DNA of 32,405 nucleotides, from IMG/VR virus record IMGVR_UViG_3300031857_000821, positions 1-32,405 of that record; one strand, 5' to 3'. This document shows, in pieces, positions 5,030-25,571 of this stretch. A model generated the notes under the pieces. That model made no database searches and was not told the origin of the DNA. It saw nothing but the letters and a program-made list of their open reading frames with translations. The translations under genes and the position numbers were made by a program. Numbering within the stretch: the stretch's first letter is position 1; every line of letters starts with the position of its first letter. This DNA is from a virus.

Positions 5030-5292
5030 CCGCACAGCCCCCGCGCCGTGCCCGCCCGGCCCCACCCCTCGCGGCCCCAGTCCAGAACCTCAGACGCCCA
5101 TGCCAGCAGTTCGCGCGTGGCGTCCTTCTCGGCATCGGTCATCGGCGCCACCAGCCCGGCACCCTCAGGCAACTCCGGCTCCGCCCGGACCTCAGTGCAG
5201 AGGCTAGGCGGGAGGGGTTGCGGGCTGGAGGGCTTCGCGCAACTCGCCAGCAGGAACAAGCTCGCGCACAGCACAGCCTTGGGAATCGACAT
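5026..5292 (-). CDS. Outer-membrane spanin lipoprotein (Rz1-like)
   Basis: The 88-residue product begins MSIPKAVLCASLFLLASCAK, a lipoprotein signal with lipobox LASC, so the mature protein should start at that Cys and be tethered to the outer membrane. A short proline-rich stretch (PSSPQPLPP) follows, as in Rz1 o-spanins. The start lies inside the Rz-like gene in another frame (89-nt overlap), the classic Rz/Rz1 arrangement. The C-terminal tail is longer than in lambda Rz1. It would pair with the inner-membrane spanin to fuse the membranes in the last step of lysis. Confidence 0.82.
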   Translation of the reverse strand: MSIPKAVLCASLFLLASCAKPSSPQPLPPSLCTEVRAEPELPEGAGLVAPMTDAEKDATRELLAWASEVLDWGREGWGRAGTARGLCG

Positions 5293-5533
5293 GGATCGGC
5301 CTCTCGATAATGGTCTCGATGCGCCGGGCCGACTTGCGGGCCTCGTTCACGCGGGACAGGCACTGGTCGGCCTGGATCTGCGCGTCCGCCATTGCGGTGT
5401 CGCGGGCTTCACGCAGCAGTTTTAGTTCAGCATTGGCAATGACCAGCCCCGCCTTGAGCCGGTCGGCACGAAAGGTCTGGATGCCCGTCGCCAGCAGCGC
5501 CACAGCCAGCAGTGCGGCCAGCACGCGGATCAT
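5204..5533 (-). CDS. Inner-membrane spanin (Rz-like)
   Basis: The 109-residue product has one N-terminal membrane segment (MIRVLAALLAVALLATGIQ) followed by a charged, heptad-like periplasmic helix, LKAGLVIANAELKLLREARD, and a region with two Cys residues. This is the type II signal-anchor plus coiled-coil design of Rz i-spanins. It lies directly after the endolysin gene (ATGA overlap at 5530-5533), and the Rz1-like gene starts inside its 3' end. Function is inferred from topology, overlap and order rather than sequence identity. Confidence 0.82.
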   Translation of the reverse strand: MIRVLAALLAVALLATGIQTFRADRLKAGLVIANAELKLLREARDTAMADAQIQADQCLSRVNEARKSARRIETIIERPIHVDSQGCAVRELVPAGELREALQPATPPA

Positions 5534-5955
5534 CTGGCAAGCTCGAAGTGGGGACTGTCCGTCTCACCCTTCTCGCGGGCACGGCCGTCCTGATCCCAGT
5601 CGCCACCCCAGCGGATCTTGACGCCCAACTGCTTGCCGGCCTCGCGCATCGCCCGCGCGACCTTGTCAAACTGGCCGGGGTCTTTCCAGTCATACGGCTC
5701 CGGCAGCAGGTCGACCGCACGGCCAAACCCATCCGGCTGCTTGAAGTGGTTGCTGTTCAGCGTCCACGTCACCTTCTTGCCCGGCTTGGTGCGCCCCTGC
5801 GCGTACAGCTCTTTCTGGCGCTCCGGCGTGCGGACGCCCTCAATCACCATGAAATCAGCCGGCGTGATCTCAATGGCGCGAGTCACGACCGCGACCATGT
5901 CGGGATGAACACCAATCAGATTGCGCTTGGATCGGTCAGACAGACGGTACGGCAT
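5530..5955 (-). CDS. Endolysin, M15-family L-alanyl-D-glutamate peptidase
   Basis: The 141-residue product carries the zinc peptidase motifs of the VanY/M15 endolysins: the block SNHF at 68-71 with its Gly-rich continuation to GRAVDLLP (78-85), and the late DSPHFEL at 133-139. H70, D82 and H136 are the likely zinc ligands. It should cleave the peptide cross-links of peptidoglycan. It has no signal peptide, consistent with export by the adjacent holin. ATG at 5955 overlaps the holin stop (TGATG); a GTG one codon earlier is an equal alternative. It sits in a holin-endolysin-Rz-Rz1 lysis cassette. Confidence 0.93.
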   Translation of the reverse strand: MPYRLSDRSKRNLIGVHPDMVAVVTRAIEITPADFMVIEGVRTPERQKELYAQGRTKPGKKVTWTLNSNHFKQPDGFGRAVDLLPEPYDWKDPGQFDKVARAMREAGKQLGVKIRWGGDWDQDGRAREKGETDSPHFELAR

Positions 5956-6194
5956 CACGCCACCCCCCGGATTTTCTCAATCGTCTTCAGGCCCAGCATG
6001 GCAGCGCAGAAGGTCAGCCAAGCAACCAGATAACCCTCAGCCATCGGCTTCTCGATCGCGGGGCCAATCACGCCGGCATAGACCAGACCCGCCACAACGA
6101 CCCAGCCGGCAGTCGGTCGCCACAGACGGTCAAACATCTGCCACGCCCAGTGCGCGCGCATCGGGTGGTCGGGCAGTGCGGTGTGGTCGGTCAC
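5955..6194 (-). CDS. Holin of the gene-transfer-agent 3TM type
   Basis: The product has 79 residues and starts with GTG at 6194 (overlapping the upstream stop as GTGA). A short polar N-terminus leads to an amphipathic WAWQMFDRLWRPTAGW segment and two hydrophobic helices at about residues 30-47 and 55-72, ending in a charged tail. The 'RLWRPTAGW' block followed by these helices matches the holin family named for gene-transfer-agent release (PF11351). It would open the inner membrane for the endolysin encoded immediately downstream. Confidence 0.85.
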   Translation of the reverse strand: MTDHTALPDHPMRAHWAWQMFDRLWRPTAGWVVVAGLVYAGVIGPAIEKPMAEGYLVAWLTFCAAMLGLKTIEKIRGVA

Positions 6195-6430
6195 TGGCCC
6201 TCGCGCTTTTCTATGCGGTCCAACTGTTCCTTCATCGCCTGTGTCCGCTCATCCAGCCGGGCCAGCGTCCCGTCGGCCAGCGGCGCAACCGTGCGCTCCA
6301 GGCTCGACACCCGCTGATTGATCCCGCCGCCCCAGAAAACCAGCGCAGCGGCCTGCATGACCAGCGCGACAATCACGCCGATCATCGCCCAGTTCAGTTT
6401 GCGGGCATCAGAGTGCAGGGTCACAGACAT
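6191..6430 (-). CDS. Single-pass membrane protein with coiled coil, lysis accessory
   Basis: The 79-residue product has one membrane segment (about 14-35, AMIGVIVALVMQAAALVFWG) followed by a soluble helix with heptad character ending in Lys/Glu. It lies directly before the holin with a coupled GTGA junction. The topology resembles XhlA-like haemolysin or antiholin proteins, which often accompany holins. I infer a role in timing of lysis; there is no decisive motif. An 80-nt gap upstream contains copy 3 of the late 10-mer. Confidence 0.72.
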   Translation of the reverse strand: MSVTLHSDARKLNWAMIGVIVALVMQAAALVFWGGGINQRVSSLERTVAPLADGTLARLDERTQAMKEQLDRIEKREGQ

Positions 6431-6495
6431 GCCTCAATGCGGGTGGTCACGGCGCGCGATCGCATGCCCGCACCTCGCCCAGCAGGCGCGCCGCC

Positions 6496-6505
6496 CTCAA
6501 CGCAC
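6496..6505 (-). promoter_or_regulatory. Late 10-mer GTGCGTTGAG, copy 3, before lysis genes
   Basis: This copy lies 4 nt after the stop of the 83-residue gene, in the 79-nt gap before the lysis cassette (positions 6431-6509). Exactly 30 nt downstream is an ATG (6465) that opens a 14-codon frame ending across the start of the 79-residue membrane-protein gene. The lysis gene ATG itself is 65 nt away. Confidence 0.5.
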
Positions 6506-6509
6506 AAGC

Positions 6510-6761
6510 TCATGCCGACACCACGAAATGGATCGTGCCGGCCGGCAGCCCGACACCGCCCGGCGCGCCAGGCAGGATCTCGAACTCACCCGCCCCGTTA
6601 ACAAACACCCACCGGTCGTTAATCTTGGCCCCGTCGTCACCGACACCCATGACCCACAACGACTGGCCAGCACTGACCTGATCCACCAGCATCGTCGGGT
6701 CGCCCACCAGCACGCGCTGAATAGCCCCCGTGGCCGTCTCGATAACCACCGCCCGGCTCAT
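6510..6761 (-). CDS. Small protein after the appendage gene, unknown function
   Basis: The 83-residue product starts MSRAVVIETATGAIQRVLVG and is predicted mostly beta-rich from its alternating pattern, with several Gly and Val. It is coupled to the upstream appendage-like gene by an ATGA overlap. Small beta-rich proteins in this position often cap or assist a tail appendage, but I recognise no family. No membrane or signal segment is present. Confidence 0.65.
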   Translation of the reverse strand: MSRAVVIETATGAIQRVLVGDPTMLVDQVSAGQSLWVMGVGDDGAKINDRWVFVNGAGEFEILPGAPGGVGLPAGTIHFVVSA

Positions 6762-7438
6762 CGCTTGCGCTCCGTCACACTCAAAAACCGCGACGACGCC
6801 GTGGCCGTGGAAAACGTGTTCACCGAGACCTGGGTCGTAAGCTGGTAGAGGTAGCTCCCCGCCGCCGGCTGGTCCGTGACCACCACCGACTGCCAGCCAA
6901 AGGCAAAGTCGCCGCCCGTCGCCTCAACCACAAAGTCCCAGATCAGCGTGCCCTGCCGGTACAGCCGCAGCGTCGTGTCAATGCTCCCGCCCGCCGGGTG
7001 CCAGACGTTCAGGTAGAAACTGAAAAACACCTCCAGCTTTTCCCCCGTCGTCGTGAACGTCACGCCCTGACAGTTCTGCTCCGCCAATGTCAGCGTCTGC
7101 GATGCGTCCGTGAACGCCGACAGGCTGTTGGATGCGCCGGCCAACTGAATCGCCGCCGTCTGAACCACGGCCGTGTCCAACCCAGCAGCATTCGTGAGCT
7201 TCGACCCGTCCGTCCGATCCAGAAAGGGCTTCACATTGGTCGAGCCAACCTTCAGCCCCGTGAACGCAGCCGTGCCATCCAGCACGTCGTCTACGCGATC
7301 GTCGACACCATCAGCCACAGCCTCAGCCGCCGCGGCCGCAACCTGGGCCAGCTCAGCCTTCTTCGCCGCACGGGCGATCAACTGCTCCGGCGTCAGCGGC
7401 GTGCGTGTCGTCGGAATGCCGCGGCGAACAGTGGTCAT
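6758..7438 (-). CDS. Putative virion appendage protein with beta-sandwich C-terminus
   Basis: The 226-residue product begins MTTVRRGIPTTRTPLTPEQL, followed by an Ala-rich helix (about 20-50) and a beta-rich domain (about 100-226) with alternating aromatic and polar residues such as FYLNVWHPAGGSIDTTLRLY. This plan, a short helical N-terminus and a jelly-roll-like C-terminus, is seen in minor tail and appendage proteins. ATG at 7438 was chosen because the upstream extension runs through the poly-A tract and G-rich leader, which look non-coding. The long leader upstream could form a G-quadruplex. Function is inferred from composition and location only. Confidence 0.68.
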   Translation of the reverse strand: MTTVRRGIPTTRTPLTPEQLIARAAKKAELAQVAAAAAEAVADGVDDRVDDVLDGTAAFTGLKVGSTNVKPFLDRTDGSKLTNAAGLDTAVVQTAAIQLAGASNSLSAFTDASQTLTLAEQNCQGVTFTTTGEKLEVFFSFYLNVWHPAGGSIDTTLRLYRQGTLIWDFVVEATGGDFAFGWQSVVVTDQPAAGSYLYQLTTQVSVNTFSTATASSRFLSVTERKR

Positions 7439-7660
7439 GCGGGGTTCCGAGGTTTTAGAGGGGTGAAAAAAAAATGAGGTCCGGCTGAGAAATTTTGCGA
7501 GGGTGACACCCCACGGGACCATCGCCCCCCGCGTTTGCCCCCCGCCCCCCATACCCCCCGCCCCGGCGCGATCCGCCCGGCAACGCGGCCCGGCCGACAG
7601 GGGGCCGATCCGAAACGGCCGCCCTGAATCGGATGCCCATTAACCGGGGCCCCTAGGGGT
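7439..7660. other. 222-nt non-coding leader with A9 run and G-quadruplex motif
   Basis: No gene fits here. The stretch holds an A9 run (7466-7474), a short inverted repeat GGGTGACACCC (7501-7511, arms GGGTG/CACCC sharing the centre), five C-tracts (7525-7530, 7538-7543, 7545-7550, 7554-7559, 7561-7564) and a palindrome CCCCTAGGGG near 7651-7660. On the minus strand, the coding strand for the flanking genes, the C-tracts read as five G-tracts with loops of 7, 1, 3 and 1 nt, a strong G-quadruplex pattern in the leader of the appendage gene. The T9 run on the minus strand has no clear preceding hairpin, so I do not call a terminator. Confidence 0.6.
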
Positions 7661-8179
7661 CTATTCATCGTCCGACTCATCGCATCCAACTGGATGATAG
7701 TTGGACGCGTCATGCTGCAATGGCTGATACGGCGGGCTTTCGATCACACCGGGCATCTGACTAGCAGGCAGATGCCCTGTCATGTTGACCGTGTTCGTGA
7801 CGATCTGAACGAGCTGGCGCGCCGACTCGGGCATGGCATTGCGGGCCGCCTGATCCGCCTCGATGAATACCTTTGCCGCCTTAAGCCGCACGTCTTCGCT
7901 GTTCGCCTGCAGGGCAAGATCGGACACGGTTAGCCAGGCCCGCTCCGTTTGGGACGCCAACCACGCGCGCTTGACATGTAAACGAAAGGCTTTGACGTGC
8001 GGCTTGATCAGGGCCTTGGAAAGCGACTCCGTAGCGTATCCCGTGCGTTTGGCCGCGTCGGCCACTGTCAGCCCTTCATGAACGATCAGGGTGATGGCCG
8101 TGCGCAAAGCAGGGCTTACGCGGCCTTTTCGGACCGGTTCGCCGTCCCTAGCGACAAGATCGTGCGTTCCCGTGGGCAT
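7661..8179 (-). CDS. Terminase small-subunit-like DNA-binding protein
   Basis: The 172-residue product starts MPTGTHDLVARDGEPVRKGR. A helix-turn-helix at about 23-62 reads LRTAITLIVHEGLTVADAAK then a recognition helix with SLSKALIKPHVKAF, followed by a long helical region with Arg/Ala-rich blocks. This pattern (HTH, 'L..ALRKPHVKA', helical oligomerisation arm) is common in phage proteins annotated as small terminase. It is separated from the large subunit by lysis and appendage genes, which is unusual but not unknown, so the role is tentative. The stop TAG at 7661 lies just beyond the CCCCTAGGGG palindrome. Confidence 0.6.
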   Translation of the reverse strand: MPTGTHDLVARDGEPVRKGRVSPALRTAITLIVHEGLTVADAAKRTGYATESLSKALIKPHVKAFRLHVKRAWLASQTERAWLTVSDLALQANSEDVRLKAAKVFIEADQAARNAMPESARQLVQIVTNTVNMTGHLPASQMPGVIESPPYQPLQHDASNYHPVGCDESDDE

Positions 8180-8180
8180 A

Positions 8181-8579
8181 TCAGGTTGATTGTCGCTTAG
8201 GCGCCGGAACCGCACCCAGATTTGCGGCCATGTCAGCCGGCATGAGGACCAGGGCGACTCCGGCCGTCTCAAGCCAAATCTCCGCCATGAATGACAAGCT
8301 GATCTCGCCGTCCGGCCGATCCGGTGCGGGCGGGTCTATGGTGATCCGGGCCCGATAACCGTGCTCCGCCTTCGTCACATACCGATCCGACCATCCAGCT
8401 CGCCCGTCGAATTGCTCGCACGTCTCATTGCTGGCGATCCGGTGCGCGCGGAGGAGTGACGCGATATCGGCGCGGGAATGAACGATAACCGGGGCGGTGA
8501 TGCGATAGGCCTGATCCGCATACCGGACGGGGCGCGCCTCGCATCCTGCAGGGTCTCCGCGCTCTTGAACGTCAAACAA
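8181..8579 (-). CDS. Helix-turn-helix protein, XRE-like core
   Basis: The 132-residue product has an HTH-like core at about residues 35-75 (LLRAHRIASNETCEQFDGRA then GWSDRYVTKAEHG), similar to alphaproteobacterial and phage proteins with 'R....G.T.EE.D...G..D.Y..K.E.G'. No ATG fits. The chosen start is TTG at 8579 preceded by a G-rich ribosome-binding stretch six bases upstream. It is the first minus-strand gene next to the divergent repeat region, so it may regulate that region, but this is inference. Its stop lies 2 nt before the small-terminase-like ATG. Confidence 0.62.
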   Translation of the reverse strand: MFDVQERGDPAGCEARPVRYADQAYRITAPVIVHSRADIASLLRAHRIASNETCEQFDGRAGWSDRYVTKAEHGYRARITIDPPAPDRPDGEISLSFMAEIWLETAGVALVLMPADMAANLGAVPAPKRQST

Positions 8580-8681
8580 TGCTCGCCCCCCATGGATCGG
8601 GGCGGGATCAGTGACCTGGGGCGCGCCAACGCAAGGTCAATATGCGGGTTGCGGGTTAGCGCGGGGTTATCGCCGTTTTGT

Positions 8682-8950
8682 CGAGTGAGGCGATCGAGTG
8701 AGGACTCCCTAGTGTATATCTGTCTCCATATCGTTTATCGATATATATATACCCCCCCCCTATGAATCCTCACTCGCTCGGTTTTGGAGACGTAGGGGAT
8801 TGAGTAATAACGGGAATCTGGAAATATCGAGTGAGGATTCACGAGTCCTCACTCGACCCCACTTGCCCACGCGGCAGGTGTGATCCGGGATCGATACAAC
8901 CTTAGACTATCCAAGTGAGGATCGAGTGGGGATGGTTGAATCCTCACTCG
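8682..8950. repeat. Iteron-like repeats CGAGTGAGGANTC, each carrying a GANTC site
   Basis: Five exact copies of the 13-mer CGAGTGAGGANTC are present: 8695-8707 (+), 8764-8776 (-), 8828-8840 (+), 8843-8855 (-) and 8938-8950 (-). A truncated copy CGAGTGAGG lies at 8682-8690, and weaker relatives at about 8913 and 8922. Copies three and four form a 10-bp stem with an 8-nt loop (8828-8855). Every full copy ends in GANTC, the CcrM methylation site, and one more GANTC lies at 8814-8818. An AT-rich tract with alternating TA (about 8717-8751) followed by C9 sits between copies. Together with its place between divergent gene blocks this suggests an origin or a multi-operator control region. Confidence 0.75.
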
Positions 8951-9036
8951 ATTTACCTGCTCAGGTTGAAAGTATGGGCAATGTGAATGAGGGGGATTGA
9001 CGGGCCCGGATATGTGCTGGCATATACGCGGGGTCA

Positions 9037-9054
9037 GCCCCGACGCGGGGCGCC
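9037..9054 (+). promoter_or_regulatory. 5' leader hairpin GCCC-N5-GGGC-GCC, copy 1
   Basis: Arms GCCCC and GGGGC enclose the loop GACGC and are followed by GCC. The same plan occurs ahead of the genes at 9604 and 9967. Here the distance to the ATG (9086) is longer (31 nt) than at the other two. Confidence 0.5.
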
Positions 9055-9085
9055 AACCGGGCCACGCGCCCTAGGGAATAGAACG

Positions 9086-9313
9086 ATGCAAGTGCTGACG
9101 ATCGAAAGCGCAAAGGCCTATGTCACCGGCCATCATGAAACGAACGGCGAGACGGCCGACATTGAAGGCGCCGCGATCTTCACTAGCGACGACGGGATCG
9201 AGATCGTCCGCCTGAATGTCACGGTGATGACGGATCAGGGCGGCGCCTATGTCGCGGCCTGGGATGTCTGGTCCGAGCCCCTCATGGGCGGCGCCCTCTA
9301 TGGGGAGTGCTAG
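9086..9313 (+). CDS. Small acidic protein, unknown function
   Basis: The 75-residue product starts MQVLTIESAKAYVTGHHETN and is acidic, with an alternating hydrophobic pattern in its second half (IEIVRLNVTVMTDQGGAYVA). ATG 9086 follows AGGGAATAG; the upstream in-frame ATG lies in the leader and is rejected. It opens the plus-strand block. I do not recognise a family. Confidence 0.65.
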   Translation: MQVLTIESAKAYVTGHHETNGETADIEGAAIFTSDDGIEIVRLNVTVMTDQGGAYVAAWDVWSEPLMGGALYGEC

Positions 9314-9316
9314 GTT

Positions 9317-9505
9317 ATGGCATACGATCTCTTGAACGCCGATTGCGCATACCGTCGCCGCTATCTGGGCACCTTCGCCACTATCTCCGCCGCCCTGCAG
9401 GCTATCCCGTCGCCGATCATTCAGTCCGACTATGACGCGGACCACGATGCCGCCGACGCCTTCGCCGCTAACGGTTCGCTCTATGTTGTGGAGCGGGCCG
9501 CCTAA
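9317..9505 (+). CDS. Small protein, unknown function
   Basis: The 62-residue product starts MAYDLLNADCAYRRRYLGTF. It begins 3 nt after the previous stop, with GGGGAG upstream as ribosome-binding site, so the two genes form an operon. The second half is Asp/Ala-rich. A terminator-like hairpin follows at 9522-9548. No family is recognised. Confidence 0.62.
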   Translation: MAYDLLNADCAYRRRYLGTFATISAALQAIPSPIIQSDYDADHDAADAFAANGSLYVVERAA

Positions 9506-9521
9506 GCCGACGCTCTAGTTT

Positions 9522-9548
9522 CCGGCCGTCAATGGCGGCCGGTTTCTT
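9522..9548 (+). terminator. Terminator-like hairpin
   Basis: Perfect 7-bp arms CCGGCCG (9522-9528) and CGGCCGG (9536-9542) with a 7-nt loop are followed by TTTCTT. It lies 17 nt after the stop at 9505. The T-run is short, so termination may be partial. Confidence 0.6.
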
Positions 9549-9570
9549 GAACGCCTGCCGCGTTCTGTTT

Positions 9571-9586
9571 GCCCGATCCGGGCGCC
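9571..9586 (+). promoter_or_regulatory. 5' leader hairpin GCCC-N5-GGGC-GCC, copy 2
   Basis: Arms GCCC and GGGC enclose GATCC and are followed by GCC, TTTT and the ribosome-binding site GGAGAA, 17 nt in all before ATG 9604. The plan matches the leader of the gene at 9967. Confidence 0.5.
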
Positions 9587-9603
9587 TTTTGGAGAATAGA
9601 CCC

Positions 9604-9876
9604 ATGCGTCAATCAATCATCACCTATTTCATCGGCCCGACGAACGTCAAAGGCCCGCGGATCAAAGCGAAAGCGTCGGGCGGTTCATCCGTCACGCTGT
9701 CATGGGATCACGCAATGGACATTGCAGGCAATCACCGGGCCGCCGCAAAAGCCCTCGCCGAAAAGCTGGACTGGTCCGGCGAGTTCGTCGCGGGCGGTAT
9801 GGCCGACGGCGCGCGAGTGTTTGTCGATTGCAGCGGCGAGTTTGGCGACGGATTCCGATCGGGAGACAAGGCCTAA
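9604..9876 (+). CDS. Small protein, unknown function
   Basis: The 90-residue product starts MRQSIITYFIGPTNVKGPRI. A beta-like N-terminus with 'GPTNVKGPRIKA' and a helical middle (HRAAAKALAEKLDW) recall small phage and plasmid proteins that bind nucleic acid, but I cannot name the family. ATG follows GGAGAATAGACCC. The unit is bounded by a hairpin leader and a terminator-like structure, so it may be expressed alone. Confidence 0.65.
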   Translation: MRQSIITYFIGPTNVKGPRIKAKASGGSSVTLSWDHAMDIAGNHRAAAKALAEKLDWSGEFVAGGMADGARVFVDCSGEFGDGFRSGDKA

Positions 9877-9913
9877 CCGCCCCGCTTTCCCGCCCTGTCA
9901 CCGGGGCGGGTTT
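9877..9913 (+). terminator. Terminator-like region with two competing hairpins
   Basis: The right arm CGGGGCGG (9902-9909) can pair with CCGCCCCG (9877-9884), while the overlapping GGCGGG (9905-9910) can pair with CCCGCC (9889-9894). Both pairings end just before TTT. The structures are mutually exclusive, as in attenuators. It begins right after the stop at 9876. Confidence 0.5.
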
Positions 9914-9936
9914 GCCGGACGGTTAGAGTCCGCATT

Positions 9937-9952
9937 GCCCAGACTGGGCGCC
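9937..9952 (+). promoter_or_regulatory. 5' leader hairpin GCCC-N5-GGGC-GCC, copy 3
   Basis: Arms GCCC and GGGC enclose AGACT and are followed by GCC and the ribosome-binding stretch GAAAGGAA, 14 nt before ATG 9967. It is the closest match to copy 2. Confidence 0.5.
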
Positions 9953-9966
9953 GAAAGGAACGAACG

Positions 9967-10683
9967 ATGAAAACGGATCCCCTCAAACTCTATCAGGCCG
10001 CCGAATCCGGCGCCGGACAACCGGGCGCCCGCAAGCGTTGGCGCCTTGCCTGTCACGCCCTCGCCCCGCTTGTGACGGATGCGGCCGCCCTGCAGGCCTT
10101 TGAGACCGCCCAGACGACACACAAGCGCGCCGACTGGCGAACGGCCGCCAAAGCCCTTGCAAACGCCCTGCAGGGCATCACGCCCGCCCCGGCGCCGGTT
10201 AAGCCGGAACGCGCCCCCATGTCGCTTTGCGAATTCCTGTCCCGCGCCGGCGGCCTTCGCGATACGGGCGGAGATCTGCAGGCAATGGGCGCGCACCTAT
10301 GGCACCGGCGCGGGGCGTTCCGTCGCAAACTAGTGACGGACTCCGGCCTTGCGCTCGACTATGCGGCCGATCTCGCTTGCGAGCGCGGCTATGTGTCCGG
10401 CTATGCCTCGCCGTCACTGGGCATGGGCGCGGATCGGGATGACGAATTGCACCGGCTAGGCGTGGGCGCCCTGCTAGAGGCGATCGAGCGCGAGATCAGC
10501 GGGACTCCCTGCTATCCGGCCGAGTCGGACTGGGCGCCGTATGTCGAGCCGGAACCGGAGGATTATGAGTCCTTGTATGCGGAAACGTGGCCGGAGGATG
10601 CGCCGATTGTCGAGCCGGTCCGGACAATCCGATTCGTTGACGCCATGACCGGCGCCGAGTCGCATGTTCTGGAGGTTCGGTGA
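9967..10683 (+). CDS. Unknown protein with phage/mobilisation-type linker domain
   Basis: The product is 238 residues. The middle part (about 85-180) begins SLCEFLSRAGGLRDTGGDLQ and continues with RKLVTDSGLALDYAADLACE, then RGYV. This 'FL...GG[IL].D.GGDL ... GL.LD.AA..A.E.GY' pattern recurs as a module in relaxases and phage methylase or nuclease proteins of Alphaproteobacteria. The N-terminal third is helical and Ala-rich, and the C-terminal third is strongly acidic with Pro/Glu. The molecular role is unknown; nucleic-acid association is only inferred. The stop overlaps the next ATG (TGATG). Confidence 0.7.
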   Translation: MKTDPLKLYQAAESGAGQPGARKRWRLACHALAPLVTDAAALQAFETAQTTHKRADWRTAAKALANALQGITPAPAPVKPERAPMSLCEFLSRAGGLRDTGGDLQAMGAHLWHRRGAFRRKLVTDSGLALDYAADLACERGYVSGYASPSLGMGADRDDELHRLGVGALLEAIEREISGTPCYPAESDWAPYVEPEPEDYESLYAETWPEDAPIVEPVRTIRFVDAMTGAESHVLEVR

Positions 10684-10829
10684 TGGAGCAGGACCTGAAA
10701 ACCGCCGCCTTGCAAGCTATGCGCGCCGCGCTTTTCCTACTGGAAAGCCCGCTCAATGATCGGTGCATCCGCGAGTCACCCCGCGTGGCGCTATTGCGCG
10801 AGACCATCGCCAGACTGGAGGCCGCGTGA
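10683..10829 (+). CDS. Very small protein, unknown function
   Basis: The 48-residue product starts MEQDLKTAALQAMRAALFLL and looks like one or two amphipathic helices. ATG at 10683 overlaps the previous stop and is preceded by GGAGG; its own stop overlaps the next ATG (TGATG). Coupling on both sides and a good ribosome-binding site support it as real. Confidence 0.6.
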   Translation: MEQDLKTAALQAMRAALFLLESPLNDRCIRESPRVALLRETIARLEAA

Positions 10830-10987
10830 TGGATCCGTTTGCTAGACTGCAGAAAGCCCGAACGGTCAACAACGCCGCATGGGACAGATATTTCAAGCGC
10901 GGAGGGCAGATTCGCGATCTTGACCGGGCCGAAAAAGCCTATGCGGAATATTTGGCCGCTCTGTCCGCGTGGCGGGAGGCGGCGTGA
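10829..10987 (+). CDS. Very small protein, unknown function
   Basis: The 52-residue product starts MDPFARLQKARTVNNAAWDR and ends in an Ala/Tyr-rich helix. It starts with a TGATG overlap after GGAGG, and its stop overlaps the following ATG the same way. It is predicted fully helical. No family is recognised. Confidence 0.6.
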   Translation: MDPFARLQKARTVNNAAWDRYFKRGGQIRDLDRAEKAYAEYLAALSAWREAA

Positions 10988-11415
10988 TGGGACTGTTTCA
11001 CACCGGCCGCGTGCACGGCCTGCCCGTTACCTTCAAATCCACAATGGCCGAGTTCCGAGCGACGCGGGCAAGGCATCCGGAGTTTCCGCGCTATCTAATC
11101 CTGGCAAAAACCCTGCAGGAAGCTGAATCAATGGCCGCCGCGATATGGGCGGGCACCGCGCACTATCACACGACGGCGCGCGGGCAGGGATCCGACCGGA
11201 TTAGCATAGTCACCGGACTGGCTGCCTCCGAATCCGTCACCCTAGCCGACGGCGCCGCGGATCAATCCCTGATTCCCGGCGTGGCGGCCGTCCCCCTAAC
11301 CGCTCGCCAGCTTGCCCAGGAACGGGCCCGGCGCGAGGCAAGGCGCGGCGCTGCAGGCTTGCCTTGTGGCGGCCTATGGGATGAAACGGCGATCAATCAG
11401 GGGAGTCTGTTTTGA
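10987..11415 (+). CDS. Small protein, unknown function
   Basis: The 142-residue product starts MGLFHTGRVHGLPVTFKSTM, has an alpha/beta-like middle, and ends with an Arg/Ala-rich helix (LAQERARREARR) and a short tail. ATG at 10987 is coupled to the previous stop (TGATG) with GGGAGG upstream; an in-frame ATG 18 nt earlier lies inside the neighbour. The basic C-terminal helix could contact nucleic acid, but no motif supports a specific role. Confidence 0.62.
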   Translation: MGLFHTGRVHGLPVTFKSTMAEFRATRARHPEFPRYLILAKTLQEAESMAAAIWAGTAHYHTTARGQGSDRISIVTGLAASESVTLADGAADQSLIPGVAAVPLTARQLAQERARREARRGAAGLPCGGLWDETAINQGSLF

Positions 11416-11633
11416 ACGTCACCACGCCCGCCGATCTAAAGGCCGCCCGCCTCGCGCTAGGTTGGAGTCTCCGCGATATGGCGCGCGCCCTTCGCCTTGC
11501 CCAGGTTGAGACAAAGGGCCCGGACCGGGTGCGGGATATGGAGTCCGGCGCCCGGCCTATCAGCGGCCCGGTATCGGTCGCGGTTGAGGCATTCCTTACC
11601 GGCTTCCGGCCGGACGGTTGGCGCGATGAATAG
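11412..11633 (+). CDS. Small HTH-like protein with TTG start
   Basis: The 73-residue product starts at TTG (11412), overlapping the upstream TGA as TTGA, with GGGGAG nine bases before. The sequence ARLALGWSLRDMARALRLA followed by 'R.MESGARPISGPV..AVEAF' resembles short XRE-type regulators common in alphaproteobacterial phages and plasmids. A DNA-binding role is likely; the target is unknown. Confidence 0.62.
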   Translation: MNVTTPADLKAARLALGWSLRDMARALRLAQVETKGPDRVRDMESGARPISGPVSVAVEAFLTGFRPDGWRDE

Positions 11634-11835
11634 CCCCGCCCGACGCAAGGCTGCAGCCGCCCATGAATCCAAGCTGCAGGGCGAGGGTTGGCGCAAAGTC
11701 ACGTTCCGCGCCTCGCCTGATATGGCGGCCGCGCTCGACTCCCTGATCCTGCAGCACGGCACCCTGCAGGCCGCCATGCGGGCGATTCTGGCGCCCGCGC
11801 CCGCGCATATCTCGCAGCGTTCAAAGCCGGACTGA
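11626..11835 (+). CDS. Ribbon-helix-helix-like small protein
   Basis: The 69-residue product starts MNSPARRKAAAAHESKLQGE. The segment GWRKVTFRASPDMAAALDSL then QAAMRAIL fits the strand-helix-helix plan of ribbon-helix-helix proteins ('V.[FL]R.S......LD.L', then a short helix). It overlaps the HTH gene by 8 nt, so two probable DNA-binding proteins end the plus-strand block. It is followed by a strong bidirectional terminator. Confidence 0.6.
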   Translation: MNSPARRKAAAAHESKLQGEGWRKVTFRASPDMAAALDSLILQHGTLQAAMRAILAPAPAHISQRSKPD

Positions 11836-11863
11836 AACCGCGTCGCCAGATTTTCCAAAATCC

Positions 11864-11899
11864 AAGGCCCGACTGGCGAAAACGCCGGCCGGGCCTTTT
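11864..11899. terminator. Bidirectional intrinsic terminator between convergent blocks
   Basis: Arms AAGGCCCG (11864-11871) and CGGGCCTT (11890-11897) enclose an inner stem GGCG-AAAA-CGCC and are followed by TT on the plus strand (TTTT in all with the arm); the minus strand reads an equivalent A/T arrangement. It separates the plus-strand block from the convergent primase gene. Confidence 0.8.
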
Positions 11900-11923
11900 G
11901 CGTGGGCGGAAACCGATTCCAAA

Positions 11924-14290
11924 TCAGGACGTGCCGGGAGATGGCCGCTCGACAGAGACCCGATACGACTTGATCTTGTGGCCGCCTGCAGGCGGCTGAT
12001 CCTCACGCCGGTCAAGATCCCCGCCGTCGACCAGGCCGTCCAGCATGTCGCGAAGCTCCTTTGCCTTGAGCCGGTTCTTGAGCGACTGGGATATCTCCCG
12101 GAACGTCATCCAGCCACGCCCCTGCAGTGCACGAATGACACGCTGCGCCTCGCCCTGGTGCTGCGTCTCGGCCATATAATCGGCGGCCATCTCGACCGTC
12201 TGTTCCGCGGACCACCGTGCAAGCGCAATGCCCCAGTCCATGTCCTCGAGCGTGACGCGCGCCGCGGCACCGTCGCGACCGATCGCCCTGATTGTGGCCA
12301 TGCGCTGCGCCATCTCCGCCGAGCGGGTGAAGAACACCGCGTCCAGCTCGCGCCGCTCACACTCCTGCCCGAACGCCATGTAGGCCTGGTGCGCATACTT
12401 GTCGTCCCATGGCACGACGATCGAGGGGCCGTCTGAGGCGGCGTTGTGTGACGTTGCGCGACTGAGCGGAGGCAGGGACGCGACGATCGCGACCAGCCCG
12501 TCCGTGATCGCATCCGGCACGGCGGTCTTGTCCAGCAGCGGCTCGCGCTCCTCGACACGGGCATGGGTCGAGAAAATCAGGAAGCGATTGAGAAAGCCGT
12601 TGAAAACGTCCGCGCCGTCAAGGTTGGCGAAGAACTCCTCGTGCGTGGACACCCCGTAGATGCTCAACGCGGGGCTGAAGATCGGCTCCCCCACCCTGCC
12701 CGCCCATTCCGGCGTGGCCATCGTGTCAAAGCTAGAGCCCCAGGCCGAGCGCAGGGTGCGGGTGATCGCCTTCTCGTGCGGCGATGCCTTGCGCCCATTG
12801 ATGCGGCCCAGATACCCGCCGAACTCGTCAATGCAGGTGAGCGTGAGCGGCTGGCGATTGAGGCGCGAGACCAGCGCGGACATCGACATGAACTCGCCGG
12901 GCCCGACATGGGCGCCAAGCGTGGCCGCACGCAGCACGCGGTCGATCGCCTTGAGCGGGTGATCCTTTGCCGCGCCAGACGGCGCCAGAAACAGCCCATA
13001 CAGGTGCGTTCCGGTGCGTGTAGGGCCTGAAAACGTGCGTCCGGCAGCCGTTCCGACGATCTCCAGCGCCGCCATGAGCGCGCCGGCACGCTGAGGCTTG
13101 CGCGCCGTGTCGCAGATCCAGTCCGTGATCGAGCCGACAAGGCCGGGGGCGCGGGTGAGCGCATCGGGAAGTTCGCCGCCGAACACCTGCAGGCTATCAG
13201 AAACCGGCGCGGTGACAGGCTGTGGTCGATCGGGTGTGACCGGCGCCTTCACCCGCAAAGGCTCAGGCAGGTCGTCGTCGCCCACCGTCGGCATATCCAG
13301 CGCGATCACCACGCTGTCATCCTTCAGGCCCAGTCGCTCACGCAGCCAGTCCGTCGCCGCCGCTTGCTCGCAGTCCCGTGCGGCCATGACCAGGTCGATC
13401 GCCGAATAAGTCTGGTTCGTCCCAAAATCCTTGATGCCATCCCGCTGGATCGAGAGATTGCGCTTGCGGTCCGGGATCGCCTGCCCGGTGCTGGACGCCC
13501 GCCATGTCGCGACCGCCTCAAACCCACCGCGTGCAGGCCTGCATCCGTACAGGTCGAGGGCGGGAACCCACTTGTCGAGGTTGCTGAGGGCCGCCGCCTT
13601 CGTCTCAGACCAGATGTCGTCAGGGTCAAGCTCACCGCAACGGGGCGGGCGTGGCGCACTTTCCTTGCGCTGATTGCCGCCACGAACCCACCCGCACACC
13701 TCCAGCGCCTCCTCCAGCGCCGTCATGTCGTCATCCGTCAGGACGGGCAGCTCGTCCGCGCGCACGGGTCCGGCCAGCCAGACGTAGGGCTTGCCGGTTT
13801 CCGGGTGGATCGACGGAGGCACGACGGTCTGGCGCGTGTCGAACCCGGTCAGGCGATCGAGAAGGCGCCCGTCGGGACCGTCATACGAGGCGGTCTTCAG
13901 CGTCTTGGGTGCCAGATAGAACCGGCTCTCGCCCTTTGCGCCACGCTTGACCATCGGACTTGCGGGTGCCGAGCGCAGCAGGGTGTCCAGCACGTCGGCA
14001 TCCTGGGCGTCAAAATCCAGAACGACGACATGCAGATCCTTGCGCGCGACCGTGCCCATGAGCAGGCCGATGTTCGCGCCCGGTGCCTTGGCCCACAGCC
14101 CCAACTCGAACGCGGACGGCGTCGTGTCACGGAACCGTTGCCACTTGGACATGCCCTGCCAGCCGCCCGAGCGATACTCGCCGGGGCATTTGCCGCGACC
14201 GGCGTGTGATGACCAGTCGGCGGGGATCAGCGGCAGGACCGAGTAGCCGAGCGCCTGCAGGTCGGAGGCGGCTTGAGCGAAGGGGGTCAT
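11924..14290 (-). CDS. Primase-polymerase fused to helicase-like domain
   Basis: The product is 788 residues. The N-terminal 200 residues fit the bifunctional primase/polymerase family (PF09250): HVVVLDFDAQD gives the D-x-D metal site (D92, D94), with a basic 'KRGAKGESRFYL' strand and 'VVPPSIHPETGKPYVW'. The middle (about 370-640) resembles the DUF3987/helicase part of phage replication proteins: APSGAAKD at 436-443 at the Walker A position and TCIDEF (485-490) as Walker B. The Walker A lacks the usual second Gly. The C-terminus (about 720-775) looks like a winged helix. ATG at 14290 overlaps the methylase stop (ATGA). It is the only replication initiator or polymerase candidate seen. Confidence 0.85.
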   Translation of the reverse strand: MTPFAQAASDLQALGYSVLPLIPADWSSHAGRGKCPGEYRSGGWQGMSKWQRFRDTTPSAFELGLWAKAPGANIGLLMGTVARKDLHVVVLDFDAQDADVLDTLLRSAPASPMVKRGAKGESRFYLAPKTLKTASYDGPDGRLLDRLTGFDTRQTVVPPSIHPETGKPYVWLAGPVRADELPVLTDDDMTALEEALEVCGWVRGGNQRKESAPRPPRCGELDPDDIWSETKAAALSNLDKWVPALDLYGCRPARGGFEAVATWRASSTGQAIPDRKRNLSIQRDGIKDFGTNQTYSAIDLVMAARDCEQAAATDWLRERLGLKDDSVVIALDMPTVGDDDLPEPLRVKAPVTPDRPQPVTAPVSDSLQVFGGELPDALTRAPGLVGSITDWICDTARKPQRAGALMAALEIVGTAAGRTFSGPTRTGTHLYGLFLAPSGAAKDHPLKAIDRVLRAATLGAHVGPGEFMSMSALVSRLNRQPLTLTCIDEFGGYLGRINGRKASPHEKAITRTLRSAWGSSFDTMATPEWAGRVGEPIFSPALSIYGVSTHEEFFANLDGADVFNGFLNRFLIFSTHARVEEREPLLDKTAVPDAITDGLVAIVASLPPLSRATSHNAASDGPSIVVPWDDKYAHQAYMAFGQECERRELDAVFFTRSAEMAQRMATIRAIGRDGAAARVTLEDMDWGIALARWSAEQTVEMAADYMAETQHQGEAQRVIRALQGRGWMTFREISQSLKNRLKAKELRDMLDGLVDGGDLDRREDQPPAGGHKIKSYRVSVERPSPGTS

Positions 14291-14820
14291 GCTGCGAGCC
14301 GCACGAACCGGCCGTCGAGACCGCAGGACTCCAGAACCGCAGCGTCGGCCTCGCCATAGGCGCAAAGCACAGACGGCGCTCCGGCATTGGCTCCGCCCGG
14401 CCTGCCTTCAGCGGTGTAGAAGTTCAGCCGACCGGCAAGGAACAGGAGGGCGCTCGCGCGGTCCCAGACGCAATCGAAAAACGTCCGCGTCTCGGTGCGA
14501 GCGAAGATGAGTGCGGTGCCGTGCCCGTGGTCTGCCATACGCCCCATGAAGCGGCTGTAGGCGGGGCGACTGTAGGGCGGGTTCAACCAGACACGCCCCA
14601 TCCACGCCGATGTCAGGCCATTGTCCTCGATGGTGTAGCGCCGCTTGGCGGTCGGCCAAGGCATCGTCAGCGGCGTCGCAGGGTCCAGATCGAAACTGTC
14701 TGGCCCGCCCAGTGCGTCGATGATGAACGGCGGGGTCAGCCAGATGTCGGACGTATCCTGCCCGCTATGGTGCGGCTCCGCCTTGATTGCGACCGGCTCA
14801 AGGTCAAACAGACTGCTCAC
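14287..14820 (-). CDS. DNA N6-adenine methyltransferase (phage Dam-like)
   Basis: The 177-residue product from GTG at 14820 overlaps the upstream stop as GTGA; an ATG nine codons earlier would overlap the neighbour by 30 nt. It shows WLTPPFIIDALGG, then FDLDPAT, and the catalytic VWLNPPYSRP (NPPY), the plan of the phage DNA N-6-adenine-methyltransferase family (PF05869). It would methylate adenine with S-adenosylmethionine, probably to evade restriction or mimic host marks. The target sequence cannot be read from the protein. It lies three genes from a GcrA homologue, whose host counterpart reads adenine methylation. Confidence 0.88.
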   Translation of the reverse strand: MSSLFDLEPVAIKAEPHHSGQDTSDIWLTPPFIIDALGGPDSFDLDPATPLTMPWPTAKRRYTIEDNGLTSAWMGRVWLNPPYSRPAYSRFMGRMADHGHGTALIFARTETRTFFDCVWDRASALLFLAGRLNFYTAEGRPGGANAGAPSVLCAYGEADAAVLESCGLDGRFVRLAA

Positions 14821-21530: not shown

Positions 21531-21733
21531 AGCGACACCTGCTCAAGGACCGCAATGGTCTCGTCCGGCAGGTTGGCGATCGGTCCGATCTTGCGGCCCG
21601 TGGCACGATATATGCGTAGGGCGAGCCTTTGGTTCGGGACGCGACGACCGTTGGCAATGTCATAGGCATAGCCGCCGCGAGCGACGCCGCTGTCCTGCAA
21701 CTGCTTGGCAAATGAGGTGTCCGGGTTGTCCAT
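21527..21733 (-). CDS. Cro-like early regulator
   Basis: The 68-residue product from ATG 21733 starts MDNPDTSFAKQLQDSGVARG, followed by GYAYDIANGRRVPNQRLALR and IYRATG, the plan of small Cro-type HTH proteins. It is the first gene of the leftward early operon, divergent from the repressor gene, with operators between them. A longer frame from 21793 would run through the operators and is rejected. It probably competes with the repressor at the same sites. Confidence 0.82.
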   Translation of the reverse strand: MDNPDTSFAKQLQDSGVARGGYAYDIANGRRVPNQRLALRIYRATGRKIGPIANLPDETIAVLEQVSL

Positions 21734-21735
21734 AT

Positions 21736-21812
21736 TTGAAACATCGCAGAATGCGAGGTTAACAGCAAGGCTTAATCCTCGCATTTTCGACATGGACGAT
21801 CGCAGCCTGCGA
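21736..21812. promoter_or_regulatory. Right operator cluster and repressor promoter
   Basis: Three operator-like sites lie here: 21744-21758 (exact reverse of CCTCGCATTCTGCGA), 21777-21790 (CCTCGCATTTTCGA) and 21800-21812 (TCGCAGCCTGCGA). A plus-strand promoter is plausible: TTGAAA (21736-21741), 17 nt, TTAACA (21759-21764), with the first operator filling the spacer exactly. The repressor ATG is at 21792. Site three falls inside the gene if that start is used, or in its leader if translation starts at 21828. Confidence 0.75.
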
Positions 21813-22145
21813 TTTACCAGTCAGCGCATGGCCAGATCACCTGCAAAGCCCGCCGCCAACCACCTCCGCGCATGGAGAGAGTTCCGACGCATGACCCAGG
21901 AACAGCTCGCCGATTCGATCGGCACCGCCGGGAATGTGATTGGCTTGCTGGAGAGTGGCGAGCGCGGACTGTCCCATAAATGGCTGCTGAGACTGGCCCC
22001 GGTCCTTGGAACCACGCCCGGCTTCCTGCTGGATCATGACCCCTACGATATGGACACGTCATTTCTGGACGCCGTCATGTCGGTGCCGACGGAAGATCGG
22101 GCACAGGTGTTGGCGATCATCGAGACCTTTAAGAAACGCGCGTGA
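21792..22145 (+). CDS. CI-like repressor, short form without peptidase domain
   Basis: The 117-residue product (105 if ATG 21828 is used) has an XRE helix-turn-helix at about 35-85: RAWREFRRMTQEQLADSIGT then GNVIGLLESGERGLSHKWLL, and a short helical tail ending ETFKKRA. The S24/LexA-like peptidase half of lambda CI is absent, so RecA-stimulated self-cleavage is not expected. It lies between two clusters of one operator and divergent from the Cro-like gene. Neither start has a clear ribosome-binding site, as is common for repressors. Confidence 0.85.
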   Translation: MDDRSLRFTSQRMARSPAKPAANHLRAWREFRRMTQEQLADSIGTAGNVIGLLESGERGLSHKWLLRLAPVLGTTPGFLLDHDPYDMDTSFLDAVMSVPTEDRAQVLAIIETFKKRA

Positions 22146-24200: not shown

Positions 24201-24556
24201 GCCTCCCGCCTCGCCTTCACCTGCCCCAGGTGCTCGCCCTCGCCGGCTACAGCCGGTCCACACTCCGCTCGCGCCAACGCGCGGGCGTCATGCCCATGCC
24301 GATCGACCGCGGCGGCCGGGGCGGGATCTATGACCGAGACGCGGTTCTCAAAGCTCTAGGGATGGCGCAGGATGAAACCCCCGACCCCGCCGATGCATGG
24401 ACATTCAAGCCCGATGCCTACCGTGACGCTCTCGCTGGGCAGATACGTCGTCCTCAAGAAGCGCGCCGACGGCACGAGCCGGGCGTACTTTCAGGTGCCG
24501 GCACGTCTGCGCCCCTCCGGCTGGTCTCCGGCCATACCGCTGCCTCGCACGGCTGA
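24197..24556 (+). CDS. Excisionase-like HTH protein
   Basis: The 119-residue product has an AlpA/MerR-type winged HTH near its start: RLHLPQVLALAGYSRSTLRS then RQRAGVMPMPIDRGGRGGIY and DRDAVLKALG. It precedes and overlaps the integrase gene by 143 nt in another frame, the typical place for a recombination directionality factor. The part after residue 70 is the overlap and may be little constrained. It would bend attR/attL DNA and favour excision. Confidence 0.78.
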   Translation: MSLPPRLHLPQVLALAGYSRSTLRSRQRAGVMPMPIDRGGRGGIYDRDAVLKALGMAQDETPDPADAWTFKPDAYRDALAGQIRRPQEARRRHEPGVLSGAGTSAPLRLVSGHTAASHG

Positions 24557-25571
24557 ACGGCGCGGCACGCTGGACGCGGCTGAGGTCGCTGCCATCAAGA
24601 AAGACGCTGAGGCCCTGTACGGTGCCCTCATGCAGGCAAAGACCGGCGACACTGTCCGACCGCCTGAGCGCAGCCTGTCGACGCTCGTGGACGCCCTGCA
24701 GCGGTCTCCTGAGTGGGCGGCGCTGTCGGAGAAGACGCGCGTCGGATATGAGACCGGCTTCAAGAAGATCCTGGCATGGTCGAAATCGTGCGGTCACCCG
24801 GACCCGACCGCCCTGCCCCGCTCCGCCATCCTGCAGTTCCTGTCCAGTTTTGACGCGGGCACAGAGCCGGACGGCACGGCGCGTGTCGCCCGGCACACCG
24901 CCAAGAAGCACACCGCCGCGGTCCTGCGCCTCGTGCTTGAGCAGGCGATCAACAAGGGCTGGCGCACGGATAACCCGGCGCGCGGCATCCGCATCAAGGT
25001 GCCGAAGACCAAGGCGACGATCTGGGAGCAGAAGGACGTCGACTGCTATGTGAAGGCCGCGCGCGATACGGGCGTGCCCTCGATCGCCCTCATCATCCTG
25101 CTGGAATGGGAGATCGGCCAGCGCCTGACCGACGTGCGCGCGTTCCGTCCGGGCGCCGAGTACGATGCTGAGCGCGGCGTCTTCTCGTTCCGGCAGTCCA
25201 AGACCGACGAGCCGGTGTCGATCGAGGTCTCGATGGGCCTGCGGGCGATGCTGGCCGAGACTGGTGACGGTCACCTGTTCCTGTTCCGCAACGACCGCAC
25301 CGGCAAGGCCTACACCGAGAACCGGCTGTCCAAGACCTTCGCCTGGGTGCGCGTCGCCGCGGTCAAGGCTGGCGGCCGGCCGCTGATCCTGAAGCAGCTC
25401 CGGCATTCCTGCATCGTGCAGTTGGCGCGCGCCGGGTGCACCGTGCCTGAGATCGCGGCGATCACGGGCCATGCGCTGACGAGCGTGAACTCGATCCTGA
25501 GCGTGTATTTGCCCCGCGATACGGCGGTGGCGAGGGCGGCTCAGGTCAAGCGGGGAATCGTCTCGGCGTGA
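24414..25571 (+). CDS. int: Tyrosine-type integrase
   Basis: The 385-residue product from ATG 24414 (MPTVTLSLGRYVVLKKRADG) has an arm-binding N-terminus with RAYFQVPARLRPSGW, a core-binding domain at about 85-190 and a catalytic domain at about 200-380. Catalytic residues are R237 (GQRLTD), K263 (QSKTDEP), R330 in LKQLRHS, H353 (ITGHA) and Y365 (SVYLPRD). The usual HxxR motif reads KxxR here (K327), a known variation. The stop is 86 nt before the tRNA-Pro-derived core, with arm-type repeats between, so it should act at that attP. Confidence 0.93.
   Translation: MPTVTLSLGRYVVLKKRADGTSRAYFQVPARLRPSGWSPAIPLPRTAERRGTLDAAEVAAIKKDAEALYGALMQAKTGDTVRPPERSLSTLVDALQRSPEWAALSEKTRVGYETGFKKILAWSKSCGHPDPTALPRSAILQFLSSFDAGTEPDGTARVARHTAKKHTAAVLRLVLEQAINKGWRTDNPARGIRIKVPKTKATIWEQKDVDCYVKAARDTGVPSIALIILLEWEIGQRLTDVRAFRPGAEYDAERGVFSFRQSKTDEPVSIEVSMGLRAMLAETGDGHLFLFRNDRTGKAYTENRLSKTFAWVRVAAVKAGGRPLILKQLRHSCIVQLARAGCTVPEIAAITGHALTSVNSILSVYLPRDTAVARAAQVKRGIVSA

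Follow-up and report, generated by a model that had tools for sequence, protein, structure and literature searches.

What is a compact block of plus-strand genes doing between minus-strand genes of a phage genome? We addressed this question for positions 9086 to 11835 of IMG/VR record IMGVR_UViG_3300031857_000821. The window that we analyzed is the entire record, 32,405 bases, and its gene content is that of a temperate phage whose internal virion and tail proteins are of podovirus type. We found that this block, here called the island, keeps its gene order in ten related contigs, that one of its gene positions holds ArdA in relatives, and that a predicted operator at its promoter occurs together with its last gene. 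We put the probability at roughly 0.7 that the island is a modular accessory operon of this temperate phage, most likely serving counter-defence, with one promoter, exchangeable slots, and terminal regulators.

Gene order and constant parts of the island

A preliminary description made from the DNA letters had reported nine plus-strand genes between minus-strand genes. All nine open reading frames (ORFs) are present, closely packed and in some places overlapping, and both flanking genes, terS (7661 to 8272) and a primase/polymerase gene (11924 to 14365), are on the minus strand. The first two genes are g1 (9086 to 9313, 75 residues), in what we call slot A, and g2 (9317 to 9505, 62 residues). 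The slot B gene, g3 (9604 to 9876, 90 residues), is followed by the constant core gene g4 (9967 to 10683, 238 residues). Slot C holds g5 (10683 to 10829, 48 residues) and g6 (10829 to 10987, 52 residues) and reaches into g7 (10987 to 11415, 142 residues), in which residues 1 to 79 are exchangeable and an invariant tail follows. The constant gene g8 (11412 to 11633, 73 residues) has a TTG start that overlaps the g7 stop, and g9 (11626 to 11835, 69 residues) ends the series. From g4 onward, neighboring genes are coupled through overlapping stops and starts. The support for g5 and g6 as genes is their position and this coupling; no relative of either was found. Library searches with the nine island proteins returned names for g3 (phrog_3199) and g8 (phrog_14076) only. 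The earlier description of the genes as orphans without a clear function needs correcting on these two points: g3 belongs to a family, albeit one with no known function, and g8 falls in a phage regulator family.

Searches with g4 and g7 identified ten island-bearing contigs (L008 to L017), of which L015 is a fragment. The gene order of the island is kept in all ten, and its position is either between terS and primase or between counterparts of these. In six (L008, L010 to L013, and L017), it has a homologous terS region on one side and a homologous primase on the other. Three others (L009, L014, and L016) have different backbone genes and retain g4 and the g7 tail, with g8 also present in L009 and L014. 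Common to all relatives are g4 and the g7 tail, and most have g8 and g9. These four constant parts are under purifying selection in the relatives, with a ratio of nonsynonymous to synonymous substitution rates (dN/dS) mostly of 0 to 0.3. The left end of the island is more mixed: g1 and g2 show 90 to 93% identity in several relatives and g2 is retained in L008 and L010 to L012, while unrelated genes stand in slot A instead of g1 in L008, L009, L013, L014, and L017. A 54-residue gene (MISDTLSDAAATVRDYLRIEPETYADRQAR..) that is nearly identical in L008 (8417 to 8581), L009 (8417 to 8581), and L012 (8192 to 8356) lies between g7 and g8, which marks a further slot.

Slot B carries ArdA in relatives

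Profile matches are direct evidence that slot B is used for antirestriction-type genes in the relatives. L010 encodes an ArdA protein there (Pfam PF07275, 1e-36; solved ArdA structure PDB 2w82, 9e-9), as does L011 (PF07275, 3e-29), and the L012 protein is an ArdA by its match to phrog_2059 (4e-23) and its 91% identity to the L010 protein. The slot proteins of L013 and L017 belong to phrog_25535, are ArdA-C-like, and match ArdA in part (phrog_2059, 1.6e-7 and 3.3e-6). L009 and L014 share one family with no known function, L008 has a protein of no known function, and L016 encodes a 308-residue protein that matches a phage family named primase. We observed no significant alignment between the slot B protein of the window and those of the relatives, while the adjoining g4 is 49 to 96% identical in the same phage pairs. 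Thus, slot B turns over and its surroundings do not.

By its place in this slot, g3 may have a comparable counter-defence role, for which the evidence is indirect. The g3 protein carries the motif IGPTN..G.RIKA and is a member of phrog_3199 (E = 2.9e-15), a family represented in more than 100 annotated phages and on 80 or more viral contigs. The core GPTN..G.R.KA is invariant in 62 of 62 aligned g3 relatives, which had been picked using a DNA pattern for this same motif. Many g3 relatives belong to early gene clusters or, in T7-like genomes, lie within the first kilobases. In Xylophilus phage Lumi and some contigs, the phrog_3199 protein has a C-terminal extension. The AlphaFold model of g3 is confident (predicted local distance difference test [pLDDT] score, 88.5) and consists of strands and one helix. 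No fold match to the model was found in the PDB, and BFVD returned uncharacterized phage proteins only; an ArdA- or Ocr-like fold for g3 was therefore rejected. There was also no ArdA profile match for g3 and no sequence alignment with the slot B ArdA proteins. The slot position would suggest a role for phrog_3199, which is very common in the early regions of lytic phages.

Constant noncoding platforms border the slots

In nucleotide alignments of the window with each relative, the breakpoints recur at the same positions. The left edge of slot B falls at 9491 to 9505 in seven relatives, at the stop codon that closes the preceding gene (9503 to 9505). The right edge, at 9871 to 9873 in nine relatives, matches the end of the slot gene, whose stop codon is at 9874 to 9876, and slot C ends inside g7, at 11223/11224, in 10 of 10 relatives. 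The shared alignment blocks run from 9491/9505 to about 9591/9609 (platform a) and from 9871/9873 onward into g4 (platform b). The g3 gene between these platforms is common to none of the ten relatives. Platform a (9503 to 9603, plus strand) consists of the g2 stop codon, three short hairpins (a terminator-like hairpin, a GAACGC/GCGTTC hairpin, and leader hairpin 2), and a ribosome-binding site. Platform b (9874 to 9966, plus strand) consists of the g3 stop codon, one long terminator-like hairpin bounded by CTAACCG/CGGTTAG (folding z = -3.8 in the window and -5.8 in L010), leader hairpin 3, and a ribosome-binding site. A simple sigma-70 scan recognized a promoter in neither platform.

A hairpin of the form GCCCN(loop)N'GGGCG stands at all three leader positions on the plus strand: before g1 (leader hairpin 1, 9037 to 9053; GCCCC..GGGGC then GC), before the slot B gene (leader hairpin 2, 9571 to 9585; GCCCG ATC CGGGC then GC), and after slot B (leader hairpin 3, 9937 to 9951; GCCCA GAC TGGGC then GC). 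Taking the window together with eight relatives gives 27 such hairpins, and all of them have a complementary fifth pair (C-G, G-C, or A-T), so the structure is kept while the sequence varies. The platforms may combine the properties of terminators, mRNA 5' structures, and recombination sites. We also considered integron-like cassettes, as the outer stem of platform b, CTAACCG/CGGTTAG, resembles attC core sites. This was rejected: the core consensus is complete in one relative only, platform a has none, and the platforms never change place.

Fixed slots of this kind could serve as a finder for counter-defence genes that are not yet known. Whatever lies between platforms a and b would form a short candidate list, and that list already holds the three clear ArdA proteins.

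A predicted operator and g9 occur together

We predicted an island promoter at 8997 to 9025 on the plus strand (TTGACG, 17-bp spacer, GCATAT), and the pattern TTGAC(A/G)-17-GCATAT is kept in all g9-bearing relatives. Overlapping the -10 element is a predicted operator of 16 bp, the near-palindrome TATGTGCTGGCATATA (9011 to 9026, plus strand), of which this is the sole copy in the window; in L012, L013, and L017, another copy stands exactly 35 bp upstream. Whole-record scans found the operator in all seven records that encode g9, the window included, and in 0 of 4 records without g9, which was sought in the same records by profile and in six frames at a low threshold. Within the g9-bearing records the operator occurs at the island promoter only, and 2 Mb of other phage contigs, scanned on both strands, contained one match at up to two mismatches.

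Operator and protein also change together in L012. The g9 protein of this contig reads WRQIKFRAD where all others read WRKVTFRAS, and GTCG replaces the CTGG core in both of its operator copies. In ribbon-helix-helix proteins such as Arc and CopG, the strand positions altered in L012 g9 are the base-contacting ones. The C-terminal part of g9 in L011 is as in L012, yet L011 has the common strand and the common operator. Likewise, g4 and primase have diverged as far in L017 as in L012, yet L017 keeps the common strand and operator. Because the operator at the promoter co-occurs with g9 and both change in L012, g9 is most likely an autorepressor of the island. Its sequence pattern, RKVTFRAS-PDMAAALDSLILQHG-TLQAAMRAIL, fits a ribbon-helix-helix protein, with a contact strand, two helices, and a G turn.

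The product of g8 matches the phage transcription-regulator family phrog_14076 (1.6e-7), with HTH_31 and HTH_3 below the cutoff, and would be a second regulator, of the helix-turn-helix (HTH) type. The proposal that the last two genes encode DNA-binding proteins is thus supported, by profile for g8 and by sequence pattern and operator co-variation for g9. In L014, which lacks g9, a different dyad, CGATATGTTTTATATCG, lies at the -10 element of the island promoter near 6440 to 6470; this dyad may serve a different regulator, for example g8, as its operator. We also confirmed the limits described for the island, a repeat region on the left (8681 to 8952) and a strong terminator at the end. The latter is a GC-rich hairpin with a T-run at about 11864 to 11899 on the plus strand (folding z = -2.99), between g9 and the convergent primase gene. 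Sequence searches with the operator-g9 pair could uncover further operons of this kind, among them ones with a repressor class missed by searches based on HTH-type Aca proteins.

The g7 tail and g4 as constant parts

Most relatives have another sequence in the part of g7 upstream of 11223/11224, and g5 and g6 have been replaced in all ten. In L008 and L009, the N-terminal part of g7 shows a distant relationship to the window version (70% over matched segments, mostly tail). The last 63 residues (ASESVTLADGAADQ...NQGSLF; 11224 to 11412, plus strand) are invariant or nearly so across the relatives. Compared with the window, dN/dS of this tail is 0, 0.08, 0, 0.04, 0.05, and 0.10 in six relatives and 0.2 to 0.5 in L013, L014, and L017, the L013 value coming from very few changes. 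QGSLF stands at the extreme C terminus in every version, and the residues just before it vary. The sliding-clamp motif is QLxLF and is often C-terminal in transposases (PMC4549789). QGSLF is a possible clamp motif; since position 2 of Q1-L2-x-L4-F5 is G, not L, it is a lead rather than a finding.

Residues 84 to 188 (approximately) of g4 match a domain within very large polyvalent-type phage proteins of 1200 to 2400 residues, a class of injected virion proteins. The carriers are Pseudomonas phage HU1, three viral contigs, and a Rhodospirillales metagenome-assembled genome, and the homology (tblastn, 2e-5 to 1e-12) includes 19 columns that are invariant across 13 sequences. The match in the Rhodospirillales genome, a distant one, was the single result of a prophage-based host search. 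The polyvalent proteins with this domain also carry LPD22, LPD3, or, in contig L034, Acb1. In the L034 protein (5204 to 12010; 2268 residues), the g4 domain is joined to a methyltransferase domain and to Acb1 (1e-35), which is an anti-CBASS protein. The 3' end of g4 occurs in two versions, and the predicted structure of g4 is of low confidence.

Weighing the function of the island

We suggest the following model. Transcription would start at the one predicted promoter beside the repeat cluster. Small genes would fill fixed slots, and whole ORFs would be swapped by homologous recombination in the constant noncoding platforms, each of which runs from the stop codon of one gene to the ribosome-binding site of the next. 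Slot B would deliver inhibitors of host defence, ArdA in relatives and g3 in the window phage, and g4 and the g7 tail would act as constant effectors. The g9 protein would bind the 16-bp operator over the -10 element and shut the operon after a burst of expression, comparable to Aca proteins, with g8 as a second regulator. A more elaborate version adds a second layer of exchange to the platform-bounded whole-ORF slots: the g7 tail would dock on the clamp and carry exchanged effectors to replication forks, again with shut-off by a ribbon-helix-helix protein. We regard this version as speculative and doubtful.

Several results weigh against a counter-defence operon. Library searches matched no window gene to a known anti-defence protein. 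The g3 family occurs near ArdA in 0 of 80 other viral contigs, so the case for an anti-defence role of g3 comes from its slot position, and the family is absent from the plasmid collection. The simple sigma-70 scan passed no site, the predicted island promoter included. The ribbon-helix-helix assignment of g9 is a sequence pattern that profile and PDB sequence searches did not confirm. Further, the phages that lack g9 and the operator are a group of their own with a different set of backbone genes, which makes the correlation between operator and g9 partly phylogenetic. The co-variation consists of one specificity change only. Set against these points, the presence of ArdA in the homologous slot, the exchange between fixed borders, and the polyvalent domain in g4 bear out the preliminary suggestion of an accessory module and make an anti-defence function the likely one.

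The same genes could instead serve host take-over, with early products redirecting host replication, through the clamp-like tail of g7, and transcription, through g8 and g9, rather than blocking defence. In lytic phages, T7-like ones among them, relatives of g3 sit in the leftmost early clusters, which would fit this reading, as would the resemblance of the invariant QGSLF end to the clamp motif. However, ArdA in the same slot favors counter-defence, and the clamp motif has G instead of L at position 2. We consider host take-over unlikely as the main function.

A further explanation is that the locus is a moron hotspot, at which unrelated small genes pile up between transcription blocks and the platforms are merely conserved terminators and ribosome-binding sites. 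Most island genes are without known function, morons are typically inserted between opposed transcription units, as would be the case here, and the slot gene of L016 matches a family called primase and no defence inhibitor. A hotspot would not lead us to expect that 5 of 10 relatives have an ArdA or ArdA-C-like protein in a single shared slot, nor that the constant parts are retained and a dedicated operator stands at the promoter. This explanation is rather improbable, and a counter-defence operon with exchangeable slots is the reading that we prefer.

Repeat cluster, base composition, and genome context

The repeat cluster at 8681 to 8952 (TCGAGTGAGG / GAATCCTCACTCGA) adjoins the island on the left and is probably a replication origin. 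It contains TCGAGTGAGGANTC in both orientations, an AT-rich stretch, and a C-run (8735 to 8761), and most full copies of the repeat end in GANTC. In L012, the cluster is replaced by other repeats (TATTTCTTTCCAC / GTAGAAAGAAATA), and g1 and g2 are still about 90% identical and in the same place. A link between the island and the repeat cluster was rejected for this reason. The preliminary idea of a plasmid-like maintenance or replication module acting with the neighboring repeats is accordingly very improbable: the repeats and AT-rich stretch do lie directly to the left (8681 to 8955) and g9 has a weak KorA-like score (E = 0.03), but beyond the L012 exchange, the predicted promoter and operator of the island lie on the right side of the repeats, profiles for partition, initiator, or toxin-antitoxin functions gave no match, and the replication genes are elsewhere, on the other strand.

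The island also differs from the backbone in composition. Per kilobase it has 7.3 GANTC, 4.0 CTGCAG, and 5.5 GGCGCC sites, compared with 1.4, 0.65, and 1.0 in the backbone, and in six relatives GANTC occurs about 4 to 7 times per kilobase in the island versus 1 to 2. The backbone avoids GANTC: D/E-S dipeptides are written with GANTC in 19 of 46 cases there versus 11 of 13 in the island. Island and backbone also differ in codon usage, with TCC, GCC, and CTA preferred. The possibility of a palindrome-rich decoy was rejected, as the observed/expected ratio of GANTC is about 1 under a Markov model and codon usage explains most of the density.

Elsewhere, the window encodes an integrase (24372 to 25571) and a cI-like regulator (21705 to 22145), and the minus strand codes for Sak4, RusA, a Cas4-type exonuclease, a helicase, and TerL. 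The annotated relatives of single window proteins are from phages of alphaproteobacteria and other aquatic bacteria. At the DNA level, the annotated phage collection contained no relative of the island region, and an Rfam search gave no match.

Comparison with known systems

ArdA (PF07275) itself fills slot B in L010, L011, and L012, whereas g3 of the window matches it neither in sequence nor in fold. The layout recalls the PeSL cassettes of T4-like phages, which reportedly combine an early promoter with a stem-loop. In both, conserved noncoding stem-loops between early genes would permit whole-gene shuffling. In contrast to these cassettes, the island platforms have no recognized promoter and close with a ribosome-binding site preceded by a short GC hairpin, and the phage group is unrelated.

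Large polyvalent proteins have been described as delivered conflict effectors (PMC5512222), and they have a core domain in common with g4. Unlike them, g4 stands alone, has 238 residues and an N-terminal helical part of its own, and is encoded by one of the early-type genes of the island, outside the virion gene block.

Anti-defence clusters of phages and plasmids with acr and aca genes (PMC7648647, PMC9410906) are like the island in their small exchangeable genes, one promoter, and ArdA as a member; acr genes cluster with ArdA next to aca9 (PMC7648647). Aca proteins repress acr operons (PMC9410906, PMC11065993), and acr-aca operons share with the island the DNA-binding regulator genes at the 3' end, here g8 and g9, and the predicted operator at the promoter. 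The island differs from them in that its slots are bounded by constant platforms with terminator hairpins. Furthermore, the ten described Aca families are all HTH proteins (PMC9410906), whereas the predicted repressor of the island is of the ribbon-helix-helix type. Since this repressor is not HTH and no known acr gene is present, we have not assigned the island to the acr-aca operons. If the prediction is correct, a ribbon-helix-helix repressor would be a type of regulator not described among the Aca proteins.

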